DNA from: Rhodobacteraceae bacterium HLUCCA09
GTDB lineage: Bacteria > Pseudomonadota > Alphaproteobacteria > Rhodobacterales > Rhodobacteraceae
Reading direction: 5' to 3'
NCBI GenBank assembly: GCA_001314685.1
Contig: LJNT01000083.1
Span: 1 to 38,097, forward strand
DNA: 38,097 nt
Position numbers and translations under genes: made by a program. The notes under the pieces were generated by a model. It was not told the DNA's origin. It worked only from the letters and a program-made list of their open reading frames with translations, and made no database searches. How positions within the stretch are numbered: the stretch's first letter is position 1; the number at the start of each line of letters is the position of its first letter. Below are positions 7,329-37,497 of the stretch, piece by piece.

Positions 7329-7544
7329 GCTCCGCCAGGGTTCTTGTGGCTATCCCAAGGGAGGCATCCTCGGCCGACACCACAACTCAATTCCGCTTGA
7401 TGATTCGATGGGGCGAGGCCCCTGACGGCGTCACGAGCCATCGGCAGATCGGCGGCAGATCAGCGAGACGTCGGTCGGCAGAAGCGCCGCGATTGCGCAT
7501 CTGCTCGAGCCGCCTGGCCTTCCGAAAGATGCGGAACCGATGCC

Positions 7545-14969: not shown

Positions 14970-15357
14970 GCGCCACGAGATCAACCTGCCCGACGTCGTG
15001 GCCGAGGTGCGCGCCGTGTTCGACCGCTATGAAAAGGCCCTGACGGATAACGACGTGCCGGTGCTGGAGGAGCTCTTCTGGAACAGCCCGCACACCACCC
15101 GCTACGGCGTGGGCGAGAATCTCTACGGCTGGGAGGCGATCTCGGCCTTCCGCCGCGCCCGCGCGACGGGCCCGTTCCGGCGGGCGCTGTCGAACACCAC
15201 GATCACCACCTACGGCCGCGACTACGCGACCGCCAACACCGAGTACCGGCGCGAGGGGCACGACCGCCCCGGCCGCGAGACCAAGACGCTCCTGCGCACG
15301 CCGCAGGGCTGGCGCATCGTCTCGGCGCACGTCAGCCTGCTGGGAGAGACGGTGTGA
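14962..15357 (+). CDS. hpxZ: HpxZ/AtzH-like protein (DUF3225, NTF2-like fold)
   Basis: INLPDVVAEVRAVFDRYEKALTDNDVPVLEELFWNSPHTTRYGVGENLYGWEAISAFRRAR...TTYGRDYATANTEYRREG...WRIVSAHVSLLG. Confidence 0.82.
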   Translation: MPERHEINLPDVVAEVRAVFDRYEKALTDNDVPVLEELFWNSPHTTRYGVGENLYGWEAISAFRRARATGPFRRALSNTTITTYGRDYATANTEYRREGHDRPGRETKTLLRTPQGWRIVSAHVSLLGETV

Positions 15358-15419
15358 GCGGCACGGACAGGGGCCTGGAAAGGCCCGCAACGAGAACGGC
15401 CCGGCAAAGGGCCGCGGAG

Positions 15420-17063: not shown

Positions 17064-17071
17064 CCCAGCTT

Positions 17072-17098
17072 CCGGCCGGGCGCCGCGCGCCCGGCCGG
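17072..17098. repeat. Strong 12-bp intercistronic hairpin between SBP and permease
   Basis: CCGGCCGGGCGC-CGC-GCGCCCGGCCGG, perfect stem right after the SBP stop codon. Confidence 0.7.
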
Positions 17099-17115
17099 GC
17101 TTCGCCGGAGGCGCA

Positions 17116-17982
17116 ATGGCCGACAGCGCAGGACAGAAGATCGCGGCCGGCGGGGTGGCAAGTCTCCGCCTGTCGGCGGGCGTGGCCCTGGCGGCGCTGC
17201 CCTGGCTCGTGGCAGCGATCTTCGTGCTCGCCGCGCTTCTCGCGCCGTGGCTGGCCCCCCACGACCCCGTCGCCGGCCGCGCGGCGCCGATGCAGCAGAT
17301 GTTCTCCGACGGTCACCTGCTGGGCACGGACGCGCTGGGCCGCGACACGCTCTCGCGGCTGCTGTTCGGGCTGCGGCCGATGCTGGTGGTCTCGCTCGGT
17401 GCGGTGGCGCTCGCGCTCGCGGCGGGCGGCGCCTACGGCCTCGTCTCGGGAACTGCCGGCGGGCGGACGGACTGGGCGATGATGCGCGCCGTCGACATCC
17501 TGATGTCGTTTCCGCTGATCCTCGCGGCGATCCTCGTGCTCGCCGCGCTGGGGCCGTCGCTCTTCAACGTGACGCTCGCGGTGGCCGTCTCGCAGCTTCC
17601 CATCTTCGCCCGCCTCGCCCGGGCGCTCGCCGCCGGCGAGGCCGCGCGCGACTACGTGCTCGCCGCCCGCGCCGCGGGCTTCTCCGAGCTGCATGTGATG
17701 CTGCGCGAGGTGGCGCCCAACATCGCCCGGCCGCTTCTGGTGCAGGCGACCTCGGTGGTCGCGCTCGCCGCGCTGACCGCCGCCGCGCTCTCCTATCTCG
17801 GCCTCGGCGTGCGCCCGCCCGCGCCCGATCTCGGCTACATGGTGAAGGAGGGGCAGGAGCTGCTGTTCATCGCCCCCGAGCAGGCGCTGCTGCCGGGCCT
17901 GCTGATCGCCGTCTTCGCGCTGGCGGTCTCGTTCTGCGGCGACCAGCTGGCCGATGTCGAGCGGCGGGGAGGCGGCGCATGA
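17116..17982 (+). CDS. Peptide-type ABC transporter permease (DppC-like)
   Basis: APWLAPHDPVAG...HLLGTDALGRDTLSRLLFGLRPMLVV...DYVLAARAAGFSELHVMLREVAPNIARPLLV...LSYLGLGVRPPAPDLGYMVKEGQ. Confidence 0.9.
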   Translation: MADSAGQKIAAGGVASLRLSAGVALAALPWLVAAIFVLAALLAPWLAPHDPVAGRAAPMQQMFSDGHLLGTDALGRDTLSRLLFGLRPMLVVSLGAVALALAAGGAYGLVSGTAGGRTDWAMMRAVDILMSFPLILAAILVLAALGPSLFNVTLAVAVSQLPIFARLARALAAGEAARDYVLAARAAGFSELHVMLREVAPNIARPLLVQATSVVALAALTAAALSYLGLGVRPPAPDLGYMVKEGQELLFIAPEQALLPGLLIAVFALAVSFCGDQLADVERRGGGA

Positions 17983-18992
17983 TTGCCGAGATCGCCCGCC
18001 GCCTCGCCTTCCTGCCGGTCACGCTGTTCGTGGTGGCCACGCTCGTCTTCCTCGCGCTGCGCGCGCTGCCCGGCTCGACGGTCGACATGCTCGCCTCGTC
18101 CTTCTCGACGGCCGGGCTGCGCGACCAGCTGATCGCCCAGCTCGGCCTCGACCAGCCGCTGTGGAAGCAATACCTCATCTACGTCGGCGACCTCGTCCGC
18201 GGCGACCTCGGCCGCTCGTTCATCACGGGCCGGGACGTGGCGACCATGGTTGGCGAGACGCTGCCGGTGACGATCGAGCTCGCCGTCGCCTCGCTCGTGG
18301 TGATGATGGTCGTCGGCCTCGGCATGGGGCTTGCCGCCGCCGCGCGGCCCGGCTCGCTGCTCGACGGGGCGCTGCGCTTCGTCGCCATGACGCTCTTCGC
18401 GCTGCCGTGGTTCTGGTTCGGCATCCTGATGATCGTGGTCTTCTCGCTCTGGCTGGGCTGGCTGCCGGCCTTTGGGCGGCTGCCCTCGTCGGTCACCTAC
18501 GAGCCGGTGACGAACTTCGTGCTCATCGACGCGATCCTGACCGGCCGGCCCGAACTGATCGGGCCGTGGCTGGCGCACCTGACGCTGCCGGCGCTGACCG
18601 TCGGGCTGACCACCGCGGGCATGCTGATGCGGCTGGCCCGCGCCGGAGTGATCGAGACGGCCCGGCTCGACTTCGTGCGCTCGGCGCGGATGAAGGGCGT
18701 GCCGCCGGGGCGCGTGTTCTTCCGCCACGTGCTGCGCAACGCGGCGCTCGGCATCCTCACCGTGATCGGCCTGCAATTCGGCGCGATGCTCGGCGGATCG
18801 GTCGTGGCCGAGGTCGTCTTCGGCTATCCCGGTATCGGGCGCATGATGGTCGACGCCGTGCTGACCCGCGACTACGCCGTGGCGCAGGGCGCCGCGCTGG
18901 TGCTGGCCGTGCTCTACGTGCTGGTCAACCTCGTGACCGACCTCGCCTATCGCTGGGCCGATCCGCGCCTGCGGCGGGAGCCGGGCCGATGA
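17979..18992 (+). CDS. Peptide-type ABC transporter permease (DppB-like)
   Basis: RRLAFLPVTLFVVATLVFLALRALPGSTVDML...YVGDLVRGDLGRSFITGRDVATMVGETLPVTIELA...FVRSARMKGVPPGRVFFRHVLRNAALGILTVIGLQFG...VVFGYPGIGRMMVDAV. Confidence 0.92.
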   Translation: MIAEIARRLAFLPVTLFVVATLVFLALRALPGSTVDMLASSFSTAGLRDQLIAQLGLDQPLWKQYLIYVGDLVRGDLGRSFITGRDVATMVGETLPVTIELAVASLVVMMVVGLGMGLAAAARPGSLLDGALRFVAMTLFALPWFWFGILMIVVFSLWLGWLPAFGRLPSSVTYEPVTNFVLIDAILTGRPELIGPWLAHLTLPALTVGLTTAGMLMRLARAGVIETARLDFVRSARMKGVPPGRVFFRHVLRNAALGILTVIGLQFGAMLGGSVVAEVVFGYPGIGRMMVDAVLTRDYAVAQGAALVLAVLYVLVNLVTDLAYRWADPRLRREPGR

Positions 18993-19975
18993 CCGGGGCG
19001 CTGCTCGAGGTCGAGGGCCTGTCGGTCGCCTTCGGCCCTCCGGGCGCCCGGCTGTCGGCTGTCGAGGGCGTGTCGTTCGCGGTCGCGCCCGGCGAGATCG
19101 TGGCGCTGGTGGGCGAGTCCGGCTCGGGCAAGTCGGCCACGGCGATGGCGCTGGCGCGGCTGAACGAGGGGCCGGGCACGAAGCTCTCGGGACGGGTCGC
19201 GCTTTCGGGGCGTGACGTGCTGGCGATGGGGGGCGCGGCCCTGCGCGACCTGCGGGGCCGGGGCATCGCCATGGTCTTCCAGGACGCGGCCGCATCGCTC
19301 AACCCCTGCGAGACGGTGGGCGACCAGATCGCGGAATCGATCGTCGTGCACGGGCGGGGCGGCTGGCGCGCGGCGCGGGCACGCGCGGTGGAGCTTCTGG
19401 CCGAGGTCGGCCTGCCGGAGCCTGCGCGCCGGGCGGGCCTCTACCCGCACGAACTGTCCGGCGGGCAGCGACAGCGGGCGATGATCGCGCTGGCGCTCGC
19501 CTGCGACCCGGCGCTCCTGATCGCCGATGAACCGACCACCGCGCTCGACGTGACGATCCAGGCGCAGATCCTCGCCCTGCTCAGGCGCCTTGTCGCCGCC
19601 CGCGACATGGGGCTGCTGCTCATCACCCACGATCTCGGCGTGGTCGCGGGCATGGCCGACCGGGTGCTGGTGATCTATTCCGGCCGGATCGTCGAGTCGG
19701 CCTCGGTCGAGGCGCTCTTCGCCGCCCCCCGCCACCCCTACACGCGCGATCTGATCGACACCGCCGCGGCGGAGCCGGACGCGACCGGGCGCCTTGCCGC
19801 CATTCCCGGCGCGCCGCCCCGGCTGGGCGCCCGGCCCGCGGGCTGCGCCTACGCGCCCCGCTGCCGCCGCGCGACCGAAGGCTGCCGCAAAGAGCAGCCG
19901 CCGCTCGCGCCCCTCGGCGCCGGTCTCGCCGCCTGCTTCCATCCCGTGCCCGGTCCGGGGGAGGGCGGGCGGTGA
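18989..19975 (+). CDS. Peptide-type ABC transporter ATP-binding protein (DppD-like)
   Basis: Walker [13 protein letters not shown]; signature [16 protein letters not shown]; Walker [16 protein letters not shown]-terminal [14 protein letters not shown]. Confidence 0.93.
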
Positions 19976-20985
19976 GCGCGCCGCTGCTTACGCTCGACGG
20001 CCTGTCGGTGCGCTACCGCGTCCGCCACGGGTTCGGCCACCGGGAGATCGCCGCGCTCAGGCCCACGAGCCTCGATGTCCGGCGCGGCGAGACCCTGGCC
20101 GTGGTGGGCGAGAGCGGATCGGGCAAGACGACGCTTGGCCGGGCAATGCTGCGCCTGGTAGAGCCCACGGAAGGGCGTATCCTGCACGAGGGCACCGATC
20201 TGACGACGCTCTCTGTCCGCAGGATGCGGCGGCTGCGCCCGCGCTTCCAGATGGTCTTCCAGGACCCCTACGGGTCGCTCAACCCGCGCCACCGCGTCGG
20301 CACGATCCTGGCCGACGTGCTGGGCCATGTCGGCGTGCCGCGGGTCGAGCGCGGGGAGCGCGCCGCCGCCCTGCTCGCCGATGTGGGCCTCGACCGGGAT
20401 ACTCTCGATCGCTTCCCCTCCGCCTTTTCCGGTGGCCAGCGCCAGCGCATCGCCATCGCGCGTGCGCTCGCCGCCGGGCCAGAGCTGGTGGTGGCCGACG
20501 AGCCGATCTCGGCGCTCGACGTCTCGATCCAGGCGCAGATCGTCAACCTGCTGGTCGAGCTGAAGCGCGAGCGGGGCCTCACGCTCGTCTTCATCTCGCA
20601 CGACCTCGACATGGTCGCCGCCATCGCCGACCGCATCGCCGTGATGTATTTCGGCGAGGTGGTCGAGCTCGGCGACGCCGCCACTCTCGCGGCTGCGCCC
20701 GCCCACCCCTACACGGCGATGCTGCTCGCCAGCCAGCCGAGGCCCGACGTCGCCGCCGCCCGTGCCACGATCGCCGCCGCCGCGGAGGCGCCGGCGGCCG
20801 ACCTGCCGAGCCAGCTCGACCCGCCCCTGGGCTGCCCCTTCCGCAGCCGCTGCCCCCGCGCGCTCGAGCGCTGCGCCGCGGAGCCCCCAGTGCTGACATC
20901 GACCGGCCGCGGCGGGCTGGCCGCCTGCCACAATCCGGTCCCCGCCGCCGAAAACCACCCGAAGAGAGGAGCTGTCCGCGCATGA
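19972..20985 (+). CDS. Peptide-type ABC transporter ATP-binding protein (DppF-like)
   Basis: GESGSGKTTLGRAML, VFQDPYGSLNPRHRVG, FSGGQRQRIAIARALAAGPELVVADEPISALDVSIQAQ, CPFRSRCPRALERC. Confidence 0.93.
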   Translation: MSAPLLTLDGLSVRYRVRHGFGHREIAALRPTSLDVRRGETLAVVGESGSGKTTLGRAMLRLVEPTEGRILHEGTDLTTLSVRRMRRLRPRFQMVFQDPYGSLNPRHRVGTILADVLGHVGVPRVERGERAAALLADVGLDRDTLDRFPSAFSGGQRQRIAIARALAAGPELVVADEPISALDVSIQAQIVNLLVELKRERGLTLVFISHDLDMVAAIADRIAVMYFGEVVELGDAATLAAAPAHPYTAMLLASQPRPDVAAARATIAAAAEAPAADLPSQLDPPLGCPFRSRCPRALERCAAEPPVLTSTGRGGLAACHNPVPAAENHPKRGAVRA

Positions 20986-21713
20986 TCATCGACGCCTACA
21001 ACAACATCTGGCAGGCCGGTCAGAACTCCGACTACCTGACCGCCGAGACCTATTCCGTCGAGATGATGCTGAAGGACATGGACGCGGCCGGCGTCGACAT
21101 GGCCGTGGGCTGCTCGCTCGGCCAGATGATCGACAACGACTACACCGCGAGCGTCGGCCGCAAGTATCCCGACCGGATCATCCCCTTCGGACAGGTCAAC
21201 GCGCGCGACGCCGACGCCGCCGACCGGATCAGGAGCGACCACGACGCCCACGGCTTCAAGGGGCTGAAGCTGCACCCGGTGCTGCACGGCTACCATGTGG
21301 TCGATCACGGCCTGCTCGACCCCATCTTCGAGGTCTGCGCCGAGCGGGGCATGATGGTGCTGTTCAACGCCCTCGACGATGCGTTCATCCATCCGCTCGG
21401 CATCGAGGAGATCGCGAAGCATCACCCGACCGTGCCCACGCTGATCGCCCACATGGGCACGGTCTGGAACGTGGGCGAGGCGATCCTCGTGGCCAAGCGC
21501 ACGCCCAACATCTATCTCGAGACGTCCTCGACCCAGCTCATCGAGGTGCGCATGGCCTACCGCGACCTCGGGCCGGAGAAGATCATCATGGGCACCGACT
21601 GGCCGGGCAGCGACTTCGAGTTGGAGCGACTGAAGATCGCCAAGTCGGTCGAAGACCCCGAGCACCGCGCGATGATCGAGGGCGGCAATCTGGCTCGCCT
21701 GCTCGGGCTGTGA
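20982..21713 (+). CDS. Amidohydrolase-2 (TIM-barrel) family protein lacking the N-terminal HxH metal motif
   Basis: MIIDAYNNIWQAGQNSDYLTAETYSVEMMLKDMDAAGVDMAVG...HGFKGLKLHPVLHGY...PTLIAHMGTVWNVGEAILVAKRTPNIYLETSS...IIMGTDWPGSDFELERLKI. The usual D-x-H-x-H is D-A-Y-N-N. Confidence 0.85.
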   Translation: MIIDAYNNIWQAGQNSDYLTAETYSVEMMLKDMDAAGVDMAVGCSLGQMIDNDYTASVGRKYPDRIIPFGQVNARDADAADRIRSDHDAHGFKGLKLHPVLHGYHVVDHGLLDPIFEVCAERGMMVLFNALDDAFIHPLGIEEIAKHHPTVPTLIAHMGTVWNVGEAILVAKRTPNIYLETSSTQLIEVRMAYRDLGPEKIIMGTDWPGSDFELERLKIAKSVEDPEHRAMIEGGNLARLLGL

Positions 21714-23131
21714 GCGAAACGGTCCGCTCCGCCGCGATCTGGCCCCGCCCCTGGGCCGGGCCGCCCCAGGCGGGCGGTGCCGTTGTGGTCGAGGCGGGCC
21801 GCGTGACGGCGGTGGAGGCGGGGGCGCCTTCGGGCGACCTGCTGCTGGTTCCCGGCCTCGTGAACGCGCACGACCACGGACGGGGCCTCTTGCCTTTGGC
21901 GATGGGCGCCCCCGACGGCCCGCTCGAGGCGTGGCTGTGGGATCTGTGGCGCACGCCGGCGACCGACCCCTACCTGACCGCGCTGGTCGCCTTCGGGCGG
22001 ATGGCGCTGTCGGGCGTGACGACGGTCGTCCACAACCACCTGCCGCAGGGGCCGGACATGGTGGCCGAGGCGAAAGCCGTCGCCCGGGCGGCACGTGACG
22101 TCGGGCTGCGGCTGGCCTTCGTCGCCCCGGTGCTCGACCGCAACCTCGCCGGCTACGACGGCGGCGCAGCGGTCGAGGCCGCGCTCGCGGCTCGGGACTG
22201 GCAGGCGATCCGCGCCGCGCAGGCGCAGCCGCCGGTGGAAGAGCAGATCGCCGCGGTGCGCGAGGTGGCGGGCGCGATCGACGGGCCGGGCATCGTCACC
22301 CAGTTCGGCCCGCCGGGGCCGCAATGGCTGTCGGAGGCCGGCTGGCAGGCGGTGGGCGAAGCCGCGGCCGGGGGCTGGCGCAGCCATGTTCACCTGCTGG
22401 AGACGCGCCTTCAGCGCGACTGGCTCGATGCCGAATGCCCCGAGGGTGCAGCTGCCTTCTTCGCCCGCGCGGGCCTGCTGAACGAGCGGCTCACCGTGGC
22501 CCACGGCGTGTTCCTGCGCCGGGACGAGATCGCGGCGCTGGCCGACGCCGGAGCGACGCTCGCGCTCAACACCAGCTCCAACCTGCGCCTCGCCTCCGGG
22601 GTGGCCGACGGAGCGGCACTGGCGGCGGCGGGTATCCGCCTCGGCGTCGGGCTCGACGGGATGGCGCTCGACGATGAGTCCGACATGCTGCGCGAAGTGC
22701 GGCTGACCGCCATGCTGCTCGGCCCGCGCCGCTTCGACACGCCCGGCCTGTCGCGCGAGGCGGTACTGCGCGCGGCCTTCTCGGACGGGCGCGTGGCGTT
22801 CGACGGCGCCGCCGCGCCGGGGCTCGTCGCGGGCGCCGAGGCCGACACGATCGGCCTGTCGCTCTCCGCCTTCGCCGGCGACCGGGTGGACGACGCGCCC
22901 GAGACGCTCGCCGCGCTCGCCCTCGGCCGGTGGCGCCGCGAGGCGGTGCGCGAGGTGCGGGTCGCCGGCCGCCGGATCGTGGCAGAGGGGCTACTGACCG
23001 GCATCGATCTGCCCGCGGCCGAAGCGGAGCTGACCGCGCAGGCCCGCGCCGACCGCACCGAAGCGCCGCCGCCCGGCTGGATCGCGCAGGCGCGTGCGGC
23101 GCGCGTGCGGGCCGCCTCGGGGGGGCGCTGA
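21710..23131 (+). CDS. TRZ/ATZ-type amidohydrolase (cytosine deaminase/chlorohydrolase superfamily)
   Basis: VPGLVNAHDHGRGLLPL (HxH present), TTVVHNHLPQG, RSHVHLLET, RLTVAHGVFLRRDEIAALADAGATLALNTSSNLRLASGV, GLDGMALDDESDMLREVRL. Confidence 0.88.
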   Translation: MSETVRSAAIWPRPWAGPPQAGGAVVVEAGRVTAVEAGAPSGDLLLVPGLVNAHDHGRGLLPLAMGAPDGPLEAWLWDLWRTPATDPYLTALVAFGRMALSGVTTVVHNHLPQGPDMVAEAKAVARAARDVGLRLAFVAPVLDRNLAGYDGGAAVEAALAARDWQAIRAAQAQPPVEEQIAAVREVAGAIDGPGIVTQFGPPGPQWLSEAGWQAVGEAAAGGWRSHVHLLETRLQRDWLDAECPEGAAAFFARAGLLNERLTVAHGVFLRRDEIAALADAGATLALNTSSNLRLASGVADGAALAAAGIRLGVGLDGMALDDESDMLREVRLTAMLLGPRRFDTPGLSREAVLRAAFSDGRVAFDGAAAPGLVAGAEADTIGLSLSAFAGDRVDDAPETLAALALGRWRREAVREVRVAGRRIVAEGLLTGIDLPAAEAELTAQARADRTEAPPPGWIAQARAARVRAASGGR

Positions 23132-23910
23132 TGCGGGGCGTGGTCCCGATCCGCGACGGCAGCTTCGCGTTCGACCCGCGCCTGATGCCGGGCGTCCGCG
23201 CCGCGCCCGACGAGGCCGCGCGCCTGCTGGGCGCCGAGGCGCTGCAAGAGGCAATCGAGGTGCCCGTGTGGTGCTACCTGGTCCAGACGGAGGACGGCCC
23301 CGCCCTGGTCGATACCGGGGGCGGCGCGCTGATGGGCGCGGGCTTCGGCGCGCTGGCAGGGCGTCTGGCCGCGCTGGGCATCGCCCTGGCCGAGATCCGC
23401 ACAGTGTGGCTCACCCACCTGCACGGCGATCATTGCGGCGGCCTGCTCGGCCCCGACGGCGCTGCGGCCTTCCCCGAGGCCCGCATCGCGCTGCCCGAGG
23501 CCGAGGCCGCCTTCTGGCTCGATGCCGCGCCGCCCGCGCCCCTGCGCCCCATCGCCGAGGACGCCCGCCGCGCCCTCGCTCCCTATGCCGGCCGCATCGC
23601 CCGGGTGCGCGAGGGCGACCGCGTCGGCCCGGCGGTCGCGCAGGCCGCGCCCGGCCATACGGCCGGTCACACTGCTTGGGTGTTCGAGGATCACGACGCG
23701 CTTGCGGCGGGCGACATCTTCCACGTCCCCGCCCTTCAACTGGCTCGGCCCGACTGGTCGACCGACTGGGACCACGACGCCGCCGCCGCCACGCATGCCC
23801 GGCAGGCGCTGACGCGCCGCGCCGCCGACCGGGGCTGGGCGCTGCTGACGGGCCATGGCGGCCCGCTCGCCCCCGGCCCCGAGGGCTGGGCGCCCATCCG
23901 ACCGGAGTGA
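23131..23910 (+). CDS. MBL-fold metallohydrolase
   Basis: VWLTHLHGDHCGGLLG (HxHxDH), APGHTAGHTAWV, GDIFHVPAL, TGHGGP. Confidence 0.9.
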   Translation: MRGVVPIRDGSFAFDPRLMPGVRAAPDEAARLLGAEALQEAIEVPVWCYLVQTEDGPALVDTGGGALMGAGFGALAGRLAALGIALAEIRTVWLTHLHGDHCGGLLGPDGAAAFPEARIALPEAEAAFWLDAAPPAPLRPIAEDARRALAPYAGRIARVREGDRVGPAVAQAAPGHTAGHTAWVFEDHDALAAGDIFHVPALQLARPDWSTDWDHDAAAATHARQALTRRAADRGWALLTGHGGPLAPGPEGWAPIRPE

Positions 23911-26430: not shown

Positions 26431-27789
26431 ATGCAGATCCAGGCAGGTCAGGTTCTTCGTCAGCAGCACGTCGTTGCGATGACGCAGGAGTTGCGTCGCG
26501 CGATCGATCTGTTGAGCTTCAACAACGCCGGTCTGCGGGCCTACCTCGAGCGTGAGGCCCGGACGAATCCGCTGATCGAATTGCGCCCGTTGGCCGACCG
26601 TCCGGCCGCCACGGACGACAGCCCCAGACCCGCGCCGGACCCGGCAGGCGGAGGCAAGGCTTCCGGGCCCGGTGCGGCCCCGGTGGGGGCCGAGGCGCTG
26701 CCTGCTGCGCCCCTGGGCCTTGTGGACCACGTGATGAGCCAGATCCGGATCGAGGCGCGCGACGCGAGACAGGTTTCGATCGCTCATGCCTTCCTCGATG
26801 CGCTTGAGCCCTACGGCTGGCTGCAGCGCGACGTCGCCGACATCGCCGCGGCCGCGGATTGCACGTGCGAGGAGGCAGAAGCCGTGCTCGCCCTGCTGCA
26901 GGCCTGCGATCCGCCGGGGATCTTCGCGCGGTCGCTCAGGGAGTGTCTGCGCCTGCAGGCCCTCGACCGAGAGGCGCTCGACCCCCTGATGGAGAGCGTC
27001 CTGGACAGGCTGGACCTCGTGGCCGAAGGAGACATCGCGGCGCTGGCCATGGCCTGCGACGCCACGGCGGGGGCGGTCGCGGCGCGCGTCGCGGTGCTGC
27101 GCGGCTTCGACCCGAAGCCGGGTCTTGCCTTCGAGGCCCCGCCCCACCCCGTCCGCGCACCCGACCTCATCGCAACGGAGGATGGGAATGGCTGGGCGCT
27201 CGAACTTAACGACGCAACGCTTCCGGCGATCACCGTGCGCAAGGACCGCGTCTCCGACAAGAGTGCGCGCGAAGGCTTCGCGGCCGAGGCGCTTGCGCGG
27301 GCGCGGGGGCTGAAGCGGGCGATCGAGTACCGCAATGCCAACACGGTCGCCGTGGGCGCCGAGATCCTCAAGCGCCAGTCGGAGTATTGCGCAGACCGCG
27401 CGACCCACCTCGAGGCGCTGTCGTTGCAGGAGGTCGCCGATGCGACGGGCCTGCACGAGAGCACGGTCAGCCGCCTCGTCGCCGGGCTGCTGATTCAGAC
27501 GCCGCGGGGTGTGCTGGTCTTGCGCGATCTGTTCTGTCGCGCGCTCGGGGCGCAGAGTGGCAAGCCGGGGGTCTCGGTCGCGCAGGTCCGGGCGAGGATC
27601 GTGGCGCTGATCGGCGAGGAGAGGCCAGACGCGCCGTTGACGGACGCGATGATCGTCGAGGCGCTCGATCGCGAGGGCGTGCGCATCGGTCGCCGGACGG
27701 TCGCCAAGTATCGCGCGATGGCGGGCCTGCACGGGGCAGCGGAACGGCGTCGGAGGGCCCGTGCATTCCCGAAGCGGCCGCGTGCGTGA
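26431..27789 (+). CDS. rpoN: RNA polymerase sigma-54 factor (RpoN paralog)
   Basis: 452 aa: region I-like MQIQAGQVLRQQHVVAMTQELRRAIDLLSFNNAGLRAYLEREARTNPLIEL; core-binding domain; HTH LSLQEVADATGLHESTVSRLVAGLLIQTPRGVLVLRDLF; RpoN box GRRTVAKYRAM. Confidence 0.92.
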   Translation: MQIQAGQVLRQQHVVAMTQELRRAIDLLSFNNAGLRAYLEREARTNPLIELRPLADRPAATDDSPRPAPDPAGGGKASGPGAAPVGAEALPAAPLGLVDHVMSQIRIEARDARQVSIAHAFLDALEPYGWLQRDVADIAAAADCTCEEAEAVLALLQACDPPGIFARSLRECLRLQALDREALDPLMESVLDRLDLVAEGDIAALAMACDATAGAVAARVAVLRGFDPKPGLAFEAPPHPVRAPDLIATEDGNGWALELNDATLPAITVRKDRVSDKSAREGFAAEALARARGLKRAIEYRNANTVAVGAEILKRQSEYCADRATHLEALSLQEVADATGLHESTVSRLVAGLLIQTPRGVLVLRDLFCRALGAQSGKPGVSVAQVRARIVALIGEERPDAPLTDAMIVEALDREGVRIGRRTVAKYRAMAGLHGAAERRRRARAFPKRPRA

Positions 27790-27819
27790 GATGCGCGCGT
27801 CTCCGCGCGGATTTCGCGC
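27784..27819 (+). promoter_or_regulatory. Putative EBP upstream activator sites (pair A)
   Basis: A1 GCGTGAGATGCGCGCGTC (27784-27801) contains GAGATGCGCGCGTCTC (7 of 8 symmetric pairs). A weaker copy, GCGCGGATTTCGCGC (27805-27819), lies 21 bp downstream. Confidence 0.5.
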
Positions 27820-27890
27820 CTGCCGTGTGCTGCCTCTCGGAATCGTCCTTTAGCGCAACGCGGTGATGCTCCCGCCGGCATCGAAGGCGG

Positions 27891-27906
27891 TGGCACGATA
27901 CTTGCA
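27891..27906 (+). promoter_or_regulatory. Sigma-54 promoter P1 (-24/-12)
   Basis: TGGCACGATACTTGCA matches TGGCACG-N4-TTGCW; GG and GC separated by 10 nt. Upstream of the SBP at 27997. Confidence 0.9.
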
Positions 27907-27996
27907 TGTAGCTTTCTGGCGGGCGCATAGGCGCGACAAGACGGCCTGCCGGTCCCGAGCCGCTCGGGCTCAGTCCAACCAAGGGAGACCCACCGA

Positions 27997-29535
27997 ATGA
28001 CACGCTTTCCACGCCTTCTGGCCGCGTCGCTCCTGGCGCTCGGCACGGCGGCACCGGTCGCCTCGGCGCAGGACCTCGTGGTCGGCTTCACGCGGGATGC
28101 CGACACGCTCGATCCCGCCAACCACCGCAACCGCGAGACCCAGACCATCATCCGCAACATGTACGACGGTATCCTGACGCGGGATTCGTCGATGGAGATC
28201 CACCCGGAACTCGCCGAGTCCTACACCCAGGTCTCGCCCACCGAGTACGACTTCGTGATCCGCGACGGGGTGCGCTTTCACGACGGCTCCGCGATGACCC
28301 TCGAGGACGTCAAGTTCACCCTCGAGCGGCTGTTCACCGAGGGCGGCATGGGCGACGGCCAGACCAGCCCTCGGCAGAGCCTGCTCGGCCCGCTCGAGAG
28401 CGTCGAGATCACCGGCGAGGACACCGTGCGCCTGACGCTGGCAGAGCCCTGGCCGCTGCTGCCCGCCATGCTGCCCTTCCAGGAAGTCGTCTCGAAGGAC
28501 CATGTCGAGGCGGTCGGCAACGATGGAATGGCGACCGAGGCCAACGGCACCGGCCCGTTCAGGCTCGTCGACTGGCGCAAGGGCGACTCGATCATCATGG
28601 AGCGGTTCGACGACTATTATGGCGGCGCCGAGGGCATCGAGCCCGTCGGGCCGGCCTGCGTCGAGCGCGCGATCTTCCGCATCATCCCCGAATCCGCGTC
28701 GCGGGTGGCGGCGCTTCTTGCGGGCGACGTGCACATCATCAACGAGCTGCCCGCCTTCGCCGTGCCGCAGGTCGAGGCCTCCGACGTGGCCGACGTGATG
28801 ACCGTAAACGGCACCCGCAGCTTCTTCATCGCCATGAACAACCAGGGCGAGATCTTCGACGACGTGAGGGTGCGGCAGGCCGTTGCCCATGCCATCGAAA
28901 AGGATCTGATCATCGACGCGATCCTCGGCGGTAACGCGGCGCGGATCGAGGGCATCCTCAGCCCCGACGCCTTCGGCAAGAACGAGGATCTGCCCGCCTA
29001 CGACCACGACCCCGAAAAGGCGCGCGCGCTGCTGGCCGAGGCAGGCTACCCCGACGGGATCGAGGTGACGATGGACGTCGAGGGCGCCTTCAAGGATACC
29101 GCGGAGGCCATCGCCTCGATGCTGACCGAAGCCGGCATCACAACGACCGTCGCGGTGGGCGAGGGGGCCCTGCTCACCGAGAAGTGGCGCACCATGGGAG
29201 AGCCCAAGGAGGGCGACATGTACTTCTCTTCCTGGGGCAACGGCTCGCTCGACCCCGAGGACATCTTCGTGCCGACGCACATGACCGACGCGCGTGGCAA
29301 CTCGGCCGGCTACTCCAACTCCGAGATCGACCGGCTGCTCGACGAGGCCGCGACTGAGGTCGATCGCGAGGTGCGGGCGAGCATGTACCAGGAGGCCGAG
29401 GCGATCGTGAACGCCGAGGTGCCCTACGTCTATCTCTGGGTGCCGCAGGACATCTACGGCGTCTCCAGGCGTGTCAGCGGCTGGAGCCCCAGCCCGGACG
29501 GCCGGATCAACCTGCACGACGCCTGCCTGAACTGA
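27997..29535 (+). CDS. ABC transporter substrate-binding protein (SBP_bac_5 type, Sec signal)
   Basis: MTRFPRLLAASLLALGTAAPVASAQ signal peptide; VVGFTRDADTLDPANHRNRETQTIIRNMYDGIL, GVRFHDGSAMTLEDVKFTLERL, TGPFRLVDW, DDVRVRQAVAHAIEKDLII. Confidence 0.92.
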   Translation: MTRFPRLLAASLLALGTAAPVASAQDLVVGFTRDADTLDPANHRNRETQTIIRNMYDGILTRDSSMEIHPELAESYTQVSPTEYDFVIRDGVRFHDGSAMTLEDVKFTLERLFTEGGMGDGQTSPRQSLLGPLESVEITGEDTVRLTLAEPWPLLPAMLPFQEVVSKDHVEAVGNDGMATEANGTGPFRLVDWRKGDSIIMERFDDYYGGAEGIEPVGPACVERAIFRIIPESASRVAALLAGDVHIINELPAFAVPQVEASDVADVMTVNGTRSFFIAMNNQGEIFDDVRVRQAVAHAIEKDLIIDAILGGNAARIEGILSPDAFGKNEDLPAYDHDPEKARALLAEAGYPDGIEVTMDVEGAFKDTAEAIASMLTEAGITTTVAVGEGALLTEKWRTMGEPKEGDMYFSSWGNGSLDPEDIFVPTHMTDARGNSAGYSNSEIDRLLDEAATEVDREVRASMYQEAEAIVNAEVPYVYLWVPQDIYGVSRRVSGWSPSPDGRINLHDACLN

Positions 29536-29612: not shown

Positions 29613-30620
29613 ATGTCCCTCGCCCGCCTCGTCGAACGGCTTCTGCAACTGATCCCGGTGCTCCTCGGCGTGAGCGTGATCGTTTTCGTGATGATCACGC
29701 TGACGCCGGGCGATCCCGTCGACATCATGATCGGCGACGAGATCGTGACCGAGGAACAGGAAGAGGCGATGCGCCGCGACCTCGGCCTCGACCGCCCCGT
29801 GCACGAGCGGTTCCTCGTCTTTCTCGGCAACGCGGTGCAGGGCGATTTCGGAGAGAGCTTCTACCACGGTCGCCCCGTGGCCGACGTGATCGCCGAACGT
29901 CTGCCCGCCACCATCGAACTGACGCTGGTGGCCATGATCATCGCCCTCGTCACCGCCATCCCGCTGGGCGTGCTGGCCGCGATCAAGCGGAACTCCATCC
30001 TCGACCGGATCGCCACGGTGGGATCGCTCCTGGGGGTGTCGCTACCCGGCTTCTGGTTCGGCATCCTGCTGATCATGCTCTTCGCCGTGCAGCTCGACCT
30101 GCTGCCGGTCTCGGGTCGGATCGGCTACGCCTTCGAGATCGAGCCGATCACGCATTTCATGCTGATCGACACGCTGCTGCGCGGCCGGCCCGACGCATTC
30201 CTCGACGCGCTGTCGCACATCATCCTGCCGGCGATCACGCTCGGGCTGCCAATGACGGCGATCCTGATGCGCGTCACCCGCGCCTCGATGCTCGAAGTGC
30301 TCCGGCAGGACTACGTGACCTTTGCCGAGGCCAAGGGTCTTGCCCGCCACCGCATCCTCTTTCGCCATGCGCTGAAGAACGCGCTGATCCCCACCGTCTC
30401 GGTCGCCGCGATCGAGACGGGCTCGCTCCTCGGCGGCAACATGATCGTCGAGACGGTCTTCGGCTGGCCCGGTCTGGGGCGGCTGGTGGTCGAGAGCATC
30501 TTCGTGCGCAACTACCCACTCGTGCAGGCGGCGGTGCTGCTCTACGCCGTGACCTACGTGATGCTCAATTTCTTCGCCGACATCCTCTACACCGTCCTCA
30601 ACCCGCGGGTGAAGCTGTGA
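29613..30620 (+). CDS. Peptide-type ABC transporter permease (DppB-like)
   Basis: RLLQLIPVLLGVSVIVFVMITLTPGDPVDIMIGDEI...LGLDRPVHERFLVFLGNAVQGDFGESFYHGRPVADVIAERLPATIELTL...VVETVFGWPGLGRLVVESI. Confidence 0.93.
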   Translation: MSLARLVERLLQLIPVLLGVSVIVFVMITLTPGDPVDIMIGDEIVTEEQEEAMRRDLGLDRPVHERFLVFLGNAVQGDFGESFYHGRPVADVIAERLPATIELTLVAMIIALVTAIPLGVLAAIKRNSILDRIATVGSLLGVSLPGFWFGILLIMLFAVQLDLLPVSGRIGYAFEIEPITHFMLIDTLLRGRPDAFLDALSHIILPAITLGLPMTAILMRVTRASMLEVLRQDYVTFAEAKGLARHRILFRHALKNALIPTVSVAAIETGSLLGGNMIVETVFGWPGLGRLVVESIFVRNYPLVQAAVLLYAVTYVMLNFFADILYTVLNPRVKL

Positions 30621-31521
30621 GCGCGACGGAGGAGATCATAGCCGCCGGCCCGGCCGAGCCCGCGCGGGAGACGCCTTTCCGCCGCAACATGCGCGCCTTT
30701 GCAGCGAACCCTCTGGCGCTGGGATCGGCCGTCGTCGTGGGTCTGTTCATCCTCATGGCGATCTTCGCGCCGCTCGTCGCGCCCCACGACCCCGCCGACA
30801 CCGATCTCCTCCGCCGCCTCCAGCCGCCGGCGTGGCTGCCGGGGGGCGACTGGGCGCACCCGCTGGGCTGCGACGCGCTGGGACGCGACATCCTCAGCCG
30901 GATCATCTACGGCGCGCGGGTGTCGATCTTCATCGGCGCGGCGGTGGTTCTGGTGGCCACGACCATCGGCATCCTCGCCGGGCTCGCCGCGGGCTACCTG
31001 CGCGGCTGGGTCGACGTGGCGATCTCGCGGTTCGTCGACATCCTGCTCGGCTTTCCCTATCTGATCTTCGCCATCGGGCTGATGGCGATGATGGGGCCTG
31101 GTCTCGGCAACATCATTCTTGCGCTGGTCTACAAGGAGTGGGTGATCCCGTGCCGCGTGGTGCGGGGCGAGACGCTGGCCGCGCGCGAGCTGGAATATGT
31201 CGAGGCCGCGCGCGCCATCGGCGCCTCGCGCGGCTACATCATGCTGCGCGAGATCCTCCCCAACATCCTCTCGCCCGTGATCGTCGTCTCCACCATCCGC
31301 ATGGCGCATGTGATCATCCTCGAGGCGTCGCTCAGCTTCCTCGGGCTCGGCGTGCAGCCGCCCACCGCCTCGTGGGGGGCGATGGTGGCCGACGGGCGGG
31401 CCTTCATCCTGCAGGCGTGGTGGGTCTCCACCTTCCCCGGCGTGGCGATCCTGCTGCTGGTGCTGGCGATCAACGTGGCCAGCCAGGGCCTGCGCGACGC
31501 CTTCGACCCGAGGTTTCACGA

Positions 31522-31525
<4 letters not shown>
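30617..31525 (+). CDS. Peptide-type ABC transporter permease (DppC-like)
   Basis: APLVAPHDPADTDL...AHPLGCDALGRDILSRIIYGARVSIFIGAAVV...EYVEAARAIGASRGYIMLREILPNILSPVIVVSTIRMAHVIILEASLSFLGLGVQPPTASWGAM. GTG start overlapping the previous stop. Confidence 0.93.
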
Positions 31526-32516
<991 letters not shown>

Positions 32517-32520
<4 letters not shown>

Positions 32521-33539
32521 CCGGAAGCGCGCCCCTCCTCGAGGTGGACAAGCTCGTGAAGGAATACCGCGGCGGCCGCCGTCTGGCCGACCGGCTGACG
32601 GGCCGGCCCGAGACGGTGGTGCGCGCCGTCACCGGCGTCAGCCTGTCGATCGCCCGGGGCGAGATCGTCGGGCTGATCGGCGAGTCGGGCTGCGGCAAGT
32701 CCACCCTCGGCCGCTCGATCCTGCGGCTGCACGAGCCCACCTCGGGGCGCGTGACGTTTGACGGCACCGACGTCACGGCGCTGGCGGCGCCTGCGATGAA
32801 GGCGATGCGACGGCGGATGCAGATCATCTTCCAGGATCCCTACGCCTCGCTCAACCCGCGCCGCACGGTGGGCGAGATCGTGGGGCTGCCGCTGCGCCTG
32901 CACGGTCTGGCCAGGAGCCCCGCGGAGGTGCGCGACCTCGTGGCGGCGATGATCGAGAAGGTGGGCCTGAAGTCCGCCCATCTGGATCGCTATCCGCACC
33001 AGTTCTCGGGCGGGCAGCGCCAGCGCATCGGGATCGCCCGGGCGCTGGTCAGCCACCCCGAGTTCATCGTCTGCGACGAGCCCGTGTCGGCGCTCGACGT
33101 CTCGATCCAGGCGCAGATCATACAGCTGCTGACCGACCTGAAGAGCGAGATGGGGCTGACCTACCTGTTCATCTCGCACGACATCTCGGTGATCGGCTAT
33201 CTCAGCGACCGGGTCGCGGTGATGTATCTGGGCGAGTTGGTGGAGTTCGGCCCCGTCGAGGACGTGCTCGCGCGCCCTCGCCACCCATACACGCAGAGCC
33301 TGATGTCGGCGGTGCCGGAGGTCGACCGGCCCGGCCACCGCCACCGCGTGCGGCTGGAGGGCGACCTGCCCTCGCCGCTCGCGCCGCCCCCCGGCTGCCG
33401 CTTTCACACGCGCTGCCCCTTCGCCACCGACATCTGCCGCCGCGAGGCGCCTCGAACCGAAACGGTGGGGCCGGGCCACACGGCCGCCTGCCACCGGTTG
33501 TCGGAGAACCTGTCGCTTCTGGACGAGGAGCAGGCATGA
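32517..33539 (+). CDS. Peptide-type ABC transporter ATP-binding protein (DppF-like)
   Basis: GESGCGKSTLGRSILRL, IIFQDPYASLNPRRTVG, FSGGQRQRIGIARALVSHPEFIVCDEPVSALDVSIQAQ, GCRFHTRCPFATDIC. Confidence 0.93.
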
Positions 33540-34627
33540 GAGCCGACGCGACTCCCCCCGCCGAGCCGGTCTTGCTGGTGGGCGACGCCGGGGCGCGCGG
33601 ACGGGCGCAGGCCGCGTCCGGCGCCGCGCCCGGTGAGGTGCGGGCAACGATGGCGGCGCGCCTGACGGAGGCGCGGGACGCGGGCCTGATGACGGAGGGC
33701 GCGCTGGCCTATCTCGCGCGTCAGCGCGCCTTCAGCGAGGCGCACTGCCCCGAGGCGATGGCCGAGATGGCCGGGATCGCCGAGGCCTTCGACCTGCCCG
33801 AGCAGGACGTCTTCCTGCACCAGCATCTCGGCACGCTGAAGGACCTCGCGGGCGGCGCGGCGCTGTCGGAGGACGGGTGCAGCGCCTGGGCGGTGGCAGA
33901 CGGGCCGGACGGGCCGCTGGTGGTGAAGAACCGCGATTTCTCGGGCCACCATGCCGCGATCCAGCGCGTATTCCGCCACGAGGGCCCCGATCTGGCGCAG
34001 GGCCCGGTGCTGTGTCTCGGCAGCCTCGGCAGCCCGGGCGCCTATTCCTCGGGGATGAACGCGGCGGGCCTCGCCGTGGTCGATACGCAGGTGGGCGTGC
34101 GCATCCATGCCGTGGGCTGGTTGCGCTACTTCCTGATGACGCGGATCCTGTCGCGCTGCGCGCGGGTGGACGAGGCGCTCGCCCTGATCCGCGCTCTGCC
34201 CCATGCCGGTGGCGGCACGCTGGTCATGGCCGACGCCCTCGGCGGCGCCGCGGTCGTCGAGTTGGCCGCCGGGGCCGTCGCCACCGAGGAGGGGCCACTC
34301 GTCTGCCGCACCAACCACTTCACCTCGACCGCCCTCGCCCACGAGACGCTGACCGACAGCACAAGCCGCATCGACGACAGCTCGGCGAAGCGGCGGGCCC
34401 ATCTCGACGCCGAACTGCCCGGGCGGCCCTGGAACGTGGGCGCCGCCGCGGCGCTCATGGCGCAGCACGTCGAGGACTGCGGAGCGTCGGTCTGCCAGCA
34501 TGCAGGTGCCGCGACAGGTGCGCGCACGATCGCCTGCACCGTCTATTGCCCGCGCTCCGGGCTCGTCTATGCTTGCCTCGATGCGCCGTGCACCGGGCCG
34601 TGGCACCATCTCTCCGTCACCGCCTGA
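33536..34627 (+). CDS. C45-family autoproteolytic Ntn acyltransferase/hydrolase (acyl-CoA:6-APA acyltransferase-like)
   Basis: LSEDGCSAWAVADGPDGPLVVKNRDFSGHH: candidate Gly/Cys self-cleavage site (Cys115, codon 33878-33880); NAAGLAVVDTQVG; CRTNHFTS; TIACTVYCPRSGLVYAC. Confidence 0.83.
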   Translation: MRADATPPAEPVLLVGDAGARGRAQAASGAAPGEVRATMAARLTEARDAGLMTEGALAYLARQRAFSEAHCPEAMAEMAGIAEAFDLPEQDVFLHQHLGTLKDLAGGAALSEDGCSAWAVADGPDGPLVVKNRDFSGHHAAIQRVFRHEGPDLAQGPVLCLGSLGSPGAYSSGMNAAGLAVVDTQVGVRIHAVGWLRYFLMTRILSRCARVDEALALIRALPHAGGGTLVMADALGGAAVVELAAGAVATEEGPLVCRTNHFTSTALAHETLTDSTSRIDDSSAKRRAHLDAELPGRPWNVGAAAALMAQHVEDCGASVCQHAGAATGARTIACTVYCPRSGLVYACLDAPCTGPWHHLSVTA

Positions 34628-34655: not shown

Positions 34656-35645
34656 ATGGCAGACCAGACAGACGACCTGATCGGCAACCACGAGAGCATC
34701 CGCGAGTTGCGTCGACTGGTGGAGCGCGTGGCGAAGAGCCCTGCCCGAACCGTGCTGATCTACGGCGAGACCGGCACGGGCAAGGGCCTCGCCGCGCTCA
34801 TGATTCACCGGCTGTCCACCCGTCACCGCAAGGAATTCGTCGACATCAACTGCGCCGCGATCCCGGCGACCCTGATGGAATCCGAGCTGTTCGGGCACGA
34901 GAAGGGCGCCTTTACGGGCGCAGTGGAACGTCGGATCGGGCTGGTGGAATCGGCCAATGGAGGGAGCATCTTTCTCGACGAGATCCGCGAGCTCGACCTG
35001 ACCCTGCAGGCCAAGCTGCTCAGCCTGCTCGACCAGCACCAGTTCCGCCGGGTGGGCGCGACGCGCACCACCTCCGTCGACGTCCGCTTCATCGCGGCGA
35101 CGAACAAGGTGCTGCTGTCGGAGGTGCGCGAAGGCAAGTTCCGCGAGGATCTCTACTACCGCCTGCAGGTGGTGGCGTTGAACATCCCGCCCCTGCGGGA
35201 GCGGGGAGATGACATCCTCGTTCTCGCTCGGCACTTCATCGACCGCTTCAACGTCCAGTACGACCGCCGCGTCCGCGGACTGAGCGACGAGGCGCGCGAG
35301 ATCCTGCTGCGCTATCCCTGGCCCGGAAACGTACGCGAGCTCGAAAACCTGCTCGAGCGCATCTTCATCCTCGAGGACGACGACGAGGTGCTGCCCCGCC
35401 ACATGCCGGACCGGATCTTGCGGACCGTGCGCTCCGGCAGTCGGACGGTCCCGCCACCGCAGGACTACGACACCGAGTTCGCGCGGGGTGGCTTCCACGA
35501 GGCCACCGCCGTTTTCCAGCGGGGGATGATCGAACAGGCGATCGTGGCGACCGACGGCAATCTGCAGGACGCGGCCGCTCGGCTGGGGATCAGCCGACAC
35601 GCCCTGCGCCACCAGATGACCAAGCTCGCCATGCGCGACGCGTGA
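34656..35645 (+). CDS. Sigma-54-dependent activator (bacterial EBP): AAA+ domain plus Fis-type HTH, no N-terminal sensory domain
   Basis: MADQTDDLIGNHESIRELRRLVERVAKSPARTVLIYGETGTGKG (Walker A), ESELFGHEKGAFTGAVERR (GAFTGA loop), GGSIFLDEI, YPWPGNVRELENLLERIFIL, HTH GNLQDAAARLGISRHALRHQM. Confidence 0.92.
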   Translation: MADQTDDLIGNHESIRELRRLVERVAKSPARTVLIYGETGTGKGLAALMIHRLSTRHRKEFVDINCAAIPATLMESELFGHEKGAFTGAVERRIGLVESANGGSIFLDEIRELDLTLQAKLLSLLDQHQFRRVGATRTTSVDVRFIAATNKVLLSEVREGKFREDLYYRLQVVALNIPPLRERGDDILVLARHFIDRFNVQYDRRVRGLSDEAREILLRYPWPGNVRELENLLERIFILEDDDEVLPRHMPDRILRTVRSGSRTVPPPQDYDTEFARGGFHEATAVFQRGMIEQAIVATDGNLQDAAARLGISRHALRHQMTKLAMRDA

Positions 35646-35681
35646 GGTGCGCACGCCGCGCGCGTGAGAGGCGCGCATGAT
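35640..35681 (+). promoter_or_regulatory. Putative EBP upstream activator sites (pair B)
   Basis: GCGTGAGGTGCGCACGCC (35640-35657) and GCGTGAGAGGCGCGCATG (35662-35679): each 15/18 identical to A1, 22 bp apart. Confidence 0.5.
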
Positions 35682-35748: not shown

Positions 35749-35764
35749 TGGCACGTCGCTTGCA
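35749..35764 (+). promoter_or_regulatory. Sigma-54 promoter P2 (-24/-12)
   Basis: TGGCACGTCGCTTGCA, same TGGCACG-N4-TTGCA pattern as P1, 31 nt before the AtuA start codon. Confidence 0.9.
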
Positions 35765-35795: not shown

Positions 35796-37181
35796 ATGAC
35801 ATCACTGAAGATCATCTGCCCGAACGGGCATCTCGGCTTCGCGCCGCTCAAGCGCGCGAGCTTCCGCCTCGGCGTCGCGGAGAAACCCGACTACATAGCG
35901 GCGGATTCGGGCAGCGACGATATCGGTCCCGTCCCGCTGGGGACCGATACCTGTGCAAGTCCCAAGGCCTGGCAGCGGCACGACCTCGAGGAGATGCTGC
36001 TGGCGGCGCGCGAGCTCGACGTGCCGATGCTGATCGGCTCGGCAGGCGACACCGGCGCGGACACGCGCGTCGACATGTACGTGCAGATGATCCGCGAGAT
36101 TGCGGCCGAGCACGGCCTCGCCCCCTTCCGTATCGGCTGGTTCTACTCCGAACTCGACAAGGAGGTCGTGGCAGGACGCATCCGGTGGGGGCGCCCGGTG
36201 ACCGGCCTCGACGGCCGCGCCGATCTGACCGAGGCCGATCTGGAGGCGACGACGCGAATCGTCGCGATGGCCGGCGTTCACCCCTACCGGACGCTTCTCG
36301 AGCAGGGCTGCGACGTGATCATCGGCGGTCGCTCGTCGGACAGTGCGATCTTCGCCGCCCCTGCCTTGCACCACGGCTTTCCCGAGGCTCAGGCCTACTA
36401 CCTTGGAAAGGTACTGGAATGCGCGTCGTTCTGCGCCGAGCCCTACGGCGCGAAGGAAACGGTGCTGGGCGAGGTCACCGCCGACTGGGTGGAGGTCACC
36501 GCGATGGCGCCACATCAATCCTGCACCGTGGCCTCGGTCGCGGGCCACGCCATGTACGAGCGCGCAGACCCGTTCCACGAATACGTCGCGGGCGGGATGC
36601 TCGACATGACCGAGTGCCGCTACGAGCAGGTCAGCGCGCGCACGACGCGCGTGACAGGCATGCGCTTCGTTCCCGCCACCGACCTGCGGGTGAAACTCGA
36701 GGGCGCGGGCAAGGTGGGCGAGCGCTATGTCGGCATGGCTGGCATCCGCGACCCCTACACCATCGCCCATGTCGACGAAGCGATCGAATGGGCCCGTGAG
36801 CAGGTCCGCGAGCGCTTCGGCGACGAGGGTTGGGAGCTGCACTACAACGTCTTCGGTCGCGACGGGATCATGGGGGCCATGGAACCCATGCGTGACAGGC
36901 CCGGCCACGAGGTTCTGGTGGTGGTCCAGGGCCTCGCGCCGACCGCCGAGATGGCCGAGGAAGTGACGATGACCGGCACGCGCCAGCTCTTCTACGCACG
37001 CCTGCCCGACGTGAAGGGCACGGCCGGCGGCGTGTCCTTCGTCTTCGACGAGGTGCTGTCGGCGTCGCCCGGCCATCGCTGGACGGTCAATCACACGATG
37101 GCCGTGGACGACCCGATGGAACTGTTCCCCTGTCATGTCGACCGCGTCGGCGCTCCGACACTGGAGACCAAGAATGCCTGA
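35796..37181 (+). CDS. AtuA-family protein (DUF1446, acyclic terpene utilization-like)
   Basis: CPNGHLGFAPLKRASFRLGVAEKPDYIAADSGSDDIGPVPLGTDTCASPK...LIGSAGDTGADTRVDMYVQMIREIAAEHGL...QGCDVIIGGRSSDSAIFAAPALHHGF. Confidence 0.85.
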   Translation: MTSLKIICPNGHLGFAPLKRASFRLGVAEKPDYIAADSGSDDIGPVPLGTDTCASPKAWQRHDLEEMLLAARELDVPMLIGSAGDTGADTRVDMYVQMIREIAAEHGLAPFRIGWFYSELDKEVVAGRIRWGRPVTGLDGRADLTEADLEATTRIVAMAGVHPYRTLLEQGCDVIIGGRSSDSAIFAAPALHHGFPEAQAYYLGKVLECASFCAEPYGAKETVLGEVTADWVEVTAMAPHQSCTVASVAGHAMYERADPFHEYVAGGMLDMTECRYEQVSARTTRVTGMRFVPATDLRVKLEGAGKVGERYVGMAGIRDPYTIAHVDEAIEWAREQVRERFGDEGWELHYNVFGRDGIMGAMEPMRDRPGHEVLVVVQGLAPTAEMAEEVTMTGTRQLFYARLPDVKGTAGGVSFVFDEVLSASPGHRWTVNHTMAVDDPMELFPCHVDRVGAPTLETKNA

Positions 37182-37497
37182 GACAACGCTGTCCGACCTC
37201 GCGAAGACGATCCGCAGCAAGAATGCAGGCACCGACAAGGTCACCTTCGACGTGATCTTCCGCAAGGGCGCCGATTACGAGCGGGTGAAACGCTCCGGCG
37301 TGCTCAGCCGTGGCGCCGTGGCCCGCATCCTGAACATCACCGAAGGGCGTGTGACAGAGTTCGTCGAGTACGATCCTGCCTACGCGATCAAGTTCACCAT
37401 CCTGCGCGACCGGCCCAGCGGCAGCCCCGGCGACGGCGACATCTTCGGCGCCCAGCAATACGCGCCGTTTCTCGGTCTGACCATTCCGGACGCGTGA
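37174..37497 (+). CDS. DUF4387-domain protein (AtuA partner)
   Basis: LAKTIRSKNAGTDKVTFDVIFRKGADYERVKRSGVLSRGAVARILNI...YDPAYAIKFTILRDRPSGSPGDGDIFGAQQYAPFLGL. Overlaps the AtuA stop by 8 nt. Confidence 0.85.
   Translation: MPETTLSDLAKTIRSKNAGTDKVTFDVIFRKGADYERVKRSGVLSRGAVARILNITEGRVTEFVEYDPAYAIKFTILRDRPSGSPGDGDIFGAQQYAPFLGLTIPDA

Follow-up and report, generated by a model that had tools for sequence, protein, structure and literature searches.

Does a sigma-54 factor encoded beside a peptide-type ABC transporter operon read the promoter of that operon, and does it do so in place of the cell's housekeeping RpoN? The common view of sigma-54 is of a single global factor that works with many activators. 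The locus that raises the question lies in a contig of Rhodobacteraceae bacterium HLUCCA09; the whole stretch of 38,097 nucleotides analysed is called the window. Evidence presented here points to a cassette of about 11 kb that carries an rpoN gene, a sigma-54 activator (bEBP) gene, candidate activator sites and two promoters.

Two exact -24/-12 sites

A preliminary description, made from the letters of the window, had placed a near-consensus sigma-54 site at 27891-27906. The site, TGGCACGATACTTGCA, is in fact an exact one: on the + strand it reads TGGCACG, a spacer ATAC and TTGCA, with no mismatch to TGGCACG-N4-TTGCW and with the GG-N10-GC spacing. One further T extends its end to GCAT, and the extended element (27891-27907, + strand), defined by pattern match, uniqueness and conservation, is termed P1. 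The ATG of a periplasmic solute-binding protein (SBP) gene, at 27997, is 90 nt downstream, as first described, and the spacer between P1 and the preceding rpoN-like stop codon (TGA, 27787-27789) is 101 nt rather than the 102 nt originally given. A second exact match to TGGCACG-N4-TTGCW, TGGCACGTCGCTTGCA, is found at 35749-35764 before an AtuA-family gene. Together with its own extension T it constitutes P2 (35749-35765, + strand), 31 nt upstream of the AtuA ATG. At both places GG-N10-GC is embedded in TGGCAC(A/G)-N4-TTGCW.

Could P1 be a chance match in a GC-rich intergenic region, with no promoter there? Loose matches carry no information, as one-mismatch places number 19 genome-wide, fewer than the 47 of a reversed-pattern control. 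Matches in the window with up to two mismatches (three observed against 5.5 expected, an uninformative count) are no commoner than in shuffled sequence, the one point in favour of a chance origin. Against this stands the exactness of the match. The consensus TGGCACG-N4-TTGCW is matched exactly at just two places in the 4.13-Mb draft assembly (92.7% complete), P1 and P2, both upstream of genes of this cluster; the extended pattern TGGCAYG-N5-TGCAT finds the same two places only, genome-wide, and its reversed-pattern control finds none. P1 scores 13 of 13, a value that none of 1000 dinucleotide shuffles of its intergenic region reaches (shuffle maximum 11), and the score of P2 is likewise reached by none of 1000 shuffles of its own region. 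With conservation in 41/41 homologous regions at fixed placement, and with activator-site dyads and a bEBP gene co-occurring (see below), a chance match is scarcely credible. P1, as far as sequence comparison can tell, is almost certainly a real sigma-54 promoter, whose transcription start is predicted about 12 nt downstream of the GC, near 27917. A structured leader of the SBP mRNA was also considered and was rejected (z = 0.76).

Gene content of the cassette

The genes of the cassette are all on one strand, the + strand. The apparently dedicated RpoN paralogue (26431-27789; 452 aa) carries PF00309, PF04963 and PF04552, scores above the TIGR02395 cut-off, and has the activator-interacting (AID), core-binding (CBD) and DNA-binding (DBD) domains of a sigma-54 protein together with the RpoN box, GRRTVAKYR. 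Its conserved neighbour is the SBP gene (27997-29535; SBP_bac_5, Pfam), followed by OppB/DppB-type (29613-30620) and OppC/DppC-type (30617-31525) permease genes, both assigned by Pfam and NCBIfam, and by ATPase genes of the OppD type (31522-32520; domain search) and the OppF type (32517-33539; Pfam, NCBIfam). Next are a C45/AAT-family autoproteolytic acyltransferase or amide hydrolase (33536-34627; PF03417, NF040521) and, as the last gene of the P1 operon, the bEBP (34656-35645; about 329 aa). The latter is of the NtrC family, with an AAA+ domain (PF00158, 1e-65), a Fis-type HTH (PF02954) and GAFTGA in the translation; it has no N-terminal sensor domain. Downstream of P2 are the genes for the AtuA-family protein (35796-37181; PF07287) and a DUF4387 protein (37174-37497; PF14330); a literature search on the function of this AtuA/DUF4387 pair gave nothing useful.

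A second peptide-type ABC system is situated upstream of the cassette, at 13599-23907 of the window. It has an SBP gene at 15354-17060 and ATPase genes near 18.9-21.0 kb, and amidase, amidohydrolase and metallo-beta-lactamase-fold genes are found in the same region.

Conservation of the cassette and its promoters

The gene order rpoN-SBP-OppB-C-D-F-C45-bEBP-[P2]-AtuA-DUF4387 recurs in other genera of the family and in most of 67 related loci collected by a search with an SBP alignment. The SBP is present in 18 of 397 sampled family genomes. By coordinates, rpoN is immediately upstream in 16/16 of those with at least 68% SBP identity; the two remoter genomes are without an adjacent rpoN. Between the window and its nearest relatives RpoN shows 47-52% identity, versus approximately 75-91% for the SBP, permeases, ATPases and activator. 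Two related arrangements are also of note. One family genome (G183, locus L180) has the order bEBP-AtuA-DUF4387-SBP-permeases with dyad-like sites; no clear GG-N10-GC was seen there before AtuA, the P2 position, despite the bEBP and a dyad-like site. On plasmid p1 of the betaproteobacterium Cupriavidus necator (L179, 9301-12249) bEBP, AtuA and DUF4387 genes form a unit that lacks the ABC genes; two dyads and TGGCACAGCTTCTGCT lie between its bEBP and AtuA genes, and the unit represents a minimal form of the P2 module.

How well are the promoters themselves conserved? In 19 orthologous regions GG, CA and GCAT are invariant and the position of the site is steady. Among rpoN-linked cassettes a -24/-12 site is present in 41/41 P1 and 33/33 P2 regions, with GG, GC and AT near-invariant and the T at -15 of the usual consensus relaxed. 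Cassettes that have the bEBP only also carry the site (15/15 P1 and 14/14 P2, a few of these picks being weak or unusually distant). Loci with neither rpoN nor bEBP (L141, L142, L146, L149 and the family member L181) showed no -24/-12 site at P1. In one locus, L147, no activator was detected, yet site and dyads are present; its downstream part may be rearranged.

The bases at -11/-10 are the ones that differ with linkage. They are AT in 39/41 P1 and 31/33 P2 regions of rpoN-linked cassettes (32/33 with L120 corrected; the best-score picks at L100 P1, L106 P1 and L120 P2 are decoys, and a GCAT site was found in each by reading the sequence). At P1 the comparison is 39/41 with a linked rpoN against 1/15 in bEBP-only cassettes (Fisher p 3e-10, kinship ignored), and it is phylogenetically structured, since the rpoN-linked cassettes are nearly all from Rhodobacteraceae/Paracoccaceae. 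Of the bEBP-only P1 sites, 12/15 (Stappia, Neorhizobium, Chelatococcus, Rhodospirillales and others) end in TTGC[T/G/C]. The A at -11 is found in 40/41 P1 sites with a linked rpoN versus 3/15 without, yet also in 11/14 P2 sites without a linked rpoN; AT occurs at P2 in 6/14 such cassettes, and GCAT is thus not exclusive to rpoN-linked ones. Across 14 other genomes with the cassette, TGGCAYR-N5-TGCAT matches are mostly cassette sites, with about 0.4 further matches per genome; 14 genomes without a close cassette have about 0.9 extra matches per genome, and the reversed control about 0.4. The window's own genome has no TGGCAYR-N5-TGCAT match beyond the cassette sites.

Is GCAT then a lineage marker only, on a real sigma-54 promoter, with no role in the choice of sigma factor? 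The predominance of one family among GCAT cassettes speaks for this, and so does the presence of GCAT at P2 where no rpoN is linked, as in Stappia and others. GCAT is, however, kept near 100% while adjacent bases vary, and it has changed together with rpoN in two cases. In a tree built from SBP and permeases, locus L095 (binned as Saccharospirillum) falls inside the rpoN-linked cassettes, but the 10 kb upstream of it contain no rpoN, and GCTA stands in place of GCAT at P1 as well as at P2. In L127 (Aquamicrobium), where the rpoN is divergent, P1 and P2 alike end in GCTT. As a sign that the promoter end follows rpoN these shifts, two events and partly from metagenome bins, are suggestive only. 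A marker of descent is a reading to be kept in mind, if one that we are inclined to doubt.

Candidate activator-binding sites

Each promoter in the window is preceded by two dyads, with centres approximately 102-104 and 81-82 bp upstream of the -24 element and 21-22 bp, or two helical turns, apart. They were scored against the model TGCGYG-N5-CRCGCA. For P1 they are TGCGTGAGATGCGCGCG (27783-27799, 11/12; centre 102 bp upstream of -24) and CGCGCGGATTTCGCGCC (27804-27820, 10/12; centre 81 bp upstream, 21 bp from the first). For P2 a dyad scan gave CGCGTGAGGTGCGCACG (35639-35655, 9/12) and CGCGTGAGAGGCGCGCA (35661-35677, 11/12), 22 bp apart. Dyads of at least 10/12 occur about 80-105 bp upstream in 40/41 P1 and 31/33 P2 regions of rpoN-linked cassettes and in 13/15 P1 and 11/14 P2 regions of activator-only cassettes, compared with 3/107 matched coding controls; a smaller set gave 17/19 regions against 4/113 controls. 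These dyads are probable activator sites.

The preliminary proposal that P1 is the sigma-54 promoter of the downstream ABC operon gains support from its conservation in the 41 homologous regions, from the conserved upstream dyads and from the bEBP gene within the operon. The activator gene, the dyads, the GCAT extension and the genome-wide uniqueness of the site had not figured in that description.

The linked sigma factor and the housekeeping RpoN

Which RpoN uses P1 and P2? The genome has two rpoN genes, the linked one and a housekeeping gene on contig C55, together with a handful of true sigma-54 activators. In a tree, a 100/99 branch separates the linked RpoNs from almost every housekeeping RpoN of the family. 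A single origin of the linked RpoNs fits this tree, with weak support (34/91); they cluster with secondary RpoNs, the flagellar ones among them. One entry labelled housekeeping, L174, was placed with the secondary RpoNs and is probably mislabelled. The -10 base varies among flagellar promoters located near related RpoNs, so this RpoN group does not as a rule go with a T there.

The recognition helix of sigma-54 reads the -12 region. In the window RpoN it is HESTVSRLVAGLLIQTPRG. Where Klebsiella SRVTTQK has its Lys, the window RpoN has Leu in the alignment, and every linked RpoN has Leu, Met, Ile or Arg; housekeeping RpoNs have Lys, except for Arg in those of the window's genome and its congener. 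As Arg occurs in both types, this residue does not separate them cleanly. The family's housekeeping RpoNs (L064 on contig C55; L162-L177) have an unusual helix that reads HPSTVGRA where HESTISR is widespread, and their promoter preference may be shifted too.

The earlier suggestion that the adjacent rpoN-like factor may drive the operon is thereby supported indirectly, by the 16/16 linkage, the co-variation at -11/-10 and the divergent recognition helix. The housekeeping RpoN could, however, use the site as well. Might the linked bEBP activate P1 and P2 while the housekeeping RpoN uses them too or instead, with the linked rpoN redundant or serving other promoters? A second RpoN exists in the genome, and in Stappia, Neorhizobium, Ciceribacter and others the cassette shows this promoter architecture although no rpoN is linked to it, so that a housekeeping RpoN can evidently serve it there. 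Set against these points are the invariable rpoN linkage in close relatives of the cassette, the -11/-10 bases that differ with linkage, the strongly different recognition helices of the two RpoN types and the absence of any other match to the cassette consensus in the genome. We regard use by the housekeeping factor as unlikely, and infer that P1 and P2 are used by the linked RpoN.

How is rpoN itself expressed? Sigma-54 control was rejected: its own upstream region has no convincing -24/-12 site in the window, and only one of 35 homologues has a strong one. Nor did a search reveal a sigma-70-type promoter for the gene. The factor is presumably supplied independently of the P1/P2 circuit.

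An xrpA-like locus as internal comparison

Only one other likely sigma-54 site was noticed in the genome. It is a one-mismatch site on contig C199, TGGCACGAAACTTGCCG, that precedes an XRE-family gene whose open reading frame starts 35 nt downstream. The neighbours of this gene are a quinone-oxidoreductase-like gene on one side and an inositol-monophosphatase-family (HisN-like) gene on the other, a REC-type activator is encoded nearby, and the locus matches the xrpA/AprX locus described in Cereibacter (Rhodobacter) sphaeroides (PMC11999139). At -11/-10 this site has CG (it ends in GCCG), versus AT in the cassette. As just two rpoN genes were found, the most economical assignment would give xrpA to the housekeeping RpoN, and P1 and P2 to the linked RpoN. 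A role of the C199 site as a small-RNA promoter was rejected, as there is no Rfam match and the XRE-family reading frame begins 35 nt downstream.

The xrpA-like locus (L063) spans 2365-8306 of contig C199, with TGGCACGAAACTTGCC at 6958 and the XRE gene at 7009-7365. The AprX-like REC-type activator is at 4044-5585, and a hybrid histidine kinase gene (HisKA, HATPase, REC) is directly upstream. In C. sphaeroides no kinase gene was reported near aprX (PMC11999139). The hybrid kinase of L063 is a candidate partner of AprX.

A proposed regulon

The elements described above are consistent with a private regulon, and we think it likely that P1 and P2 are sigma-54 promoters run by the linked RpoN and the cassette's own bEBP, with positive feedback. 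The linked RpoN with core polymerase would occupy TGGCACG-N4-TTGCAT as a closed complex, and the bEBP, bound to the tandem dyads approximately 80 and 100 bp upstream, would open this complex via ATP hydrolysis. P1 would thereby yield the peptide-type ABC transporter, the C45 hydrolase and the bEBP, and P2 the AtuA and DUF4387 products. Positive feedback is predicted, since the P1 operon ends with the bEBP gene; as the bEBP has no sensor domain, a signal would have to act through the bEBP level, a partner protein or the RpoN supply. The substrate is possibly an N-acylated or amide-bearing peptide-like compound.

Is this regulon also portable and insulated? The -12 recognition helix of the linked RpoN may have co-evolved with the -11/-10 bases of both promoters, such that each of the cell's two sigma-54 factors has a promoter set of its own; in a host that lacks the linked RpoN, the promoters of an incoming cassette would then revert or shift. 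We find the arguments for and against this evenly balanced. The occurrence of cassettes with a linked rpoN, with the activator only or with neither, together with transfers, constitutes a natural experiment on whether the specificity of the -12 element follows the sigma factor. With two promoters and two RpoNs, the avoidance of cross-talk between sigma-54 paralogues becomes directly testable.

Relation to known systems

A description of the cassette was not found in the open literature searched, where most subscription papers are missing. Cognate RpoN-activator pairs are already known from C. sphaeroides, i.e. RpoN1/NifA, RpoN2/FleQ and RpoN3/AprX (PMC11999139), and there the base at -11 reportedly plays a part in discrimination between RpoN1 and RpoN2 (PMC11999139 and works that it cites). 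What appears new is one cassette with its own sigma-54, activator, sites and promoters. As in C. sphaeroides, where each paralogue has its own activator, several RpoN paralogues are present per cell, and the second RpoN is distinct from the housekeeping one, as two rpoN genes and the 100/99 branch indicate. Unlike the C. sphaeroides pairs, rpoN, activator, activator sites and both promoters are held here within approximately 11 kb, and the target is a peptide-type ABC/C45/AtuA/DUF4387 system. AprX carries a REC domain, whereas the cassette bEBP has no sensor domain.

PspF and HrpS-type bEBPs consist of AAA+ and HTH only, with no N-terminal sensor domain. The cassette bEBP is built in the same way, but the cassette shows no evident gene for a PspA- or HrpV-like partner. 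The promoters resemble classical -24/-12 promoters that work with NtrC-family activators in having TGGCACG-N4-TTGCW, the fixed GG-N10-GC spacing, candidate activator sites about 100 bp upstream and an AAA+ GAFTGA activator. They differ from these in that rpoN-linked cassettes have an extended, near-invariant T at -10 and a relaxed T at -15.
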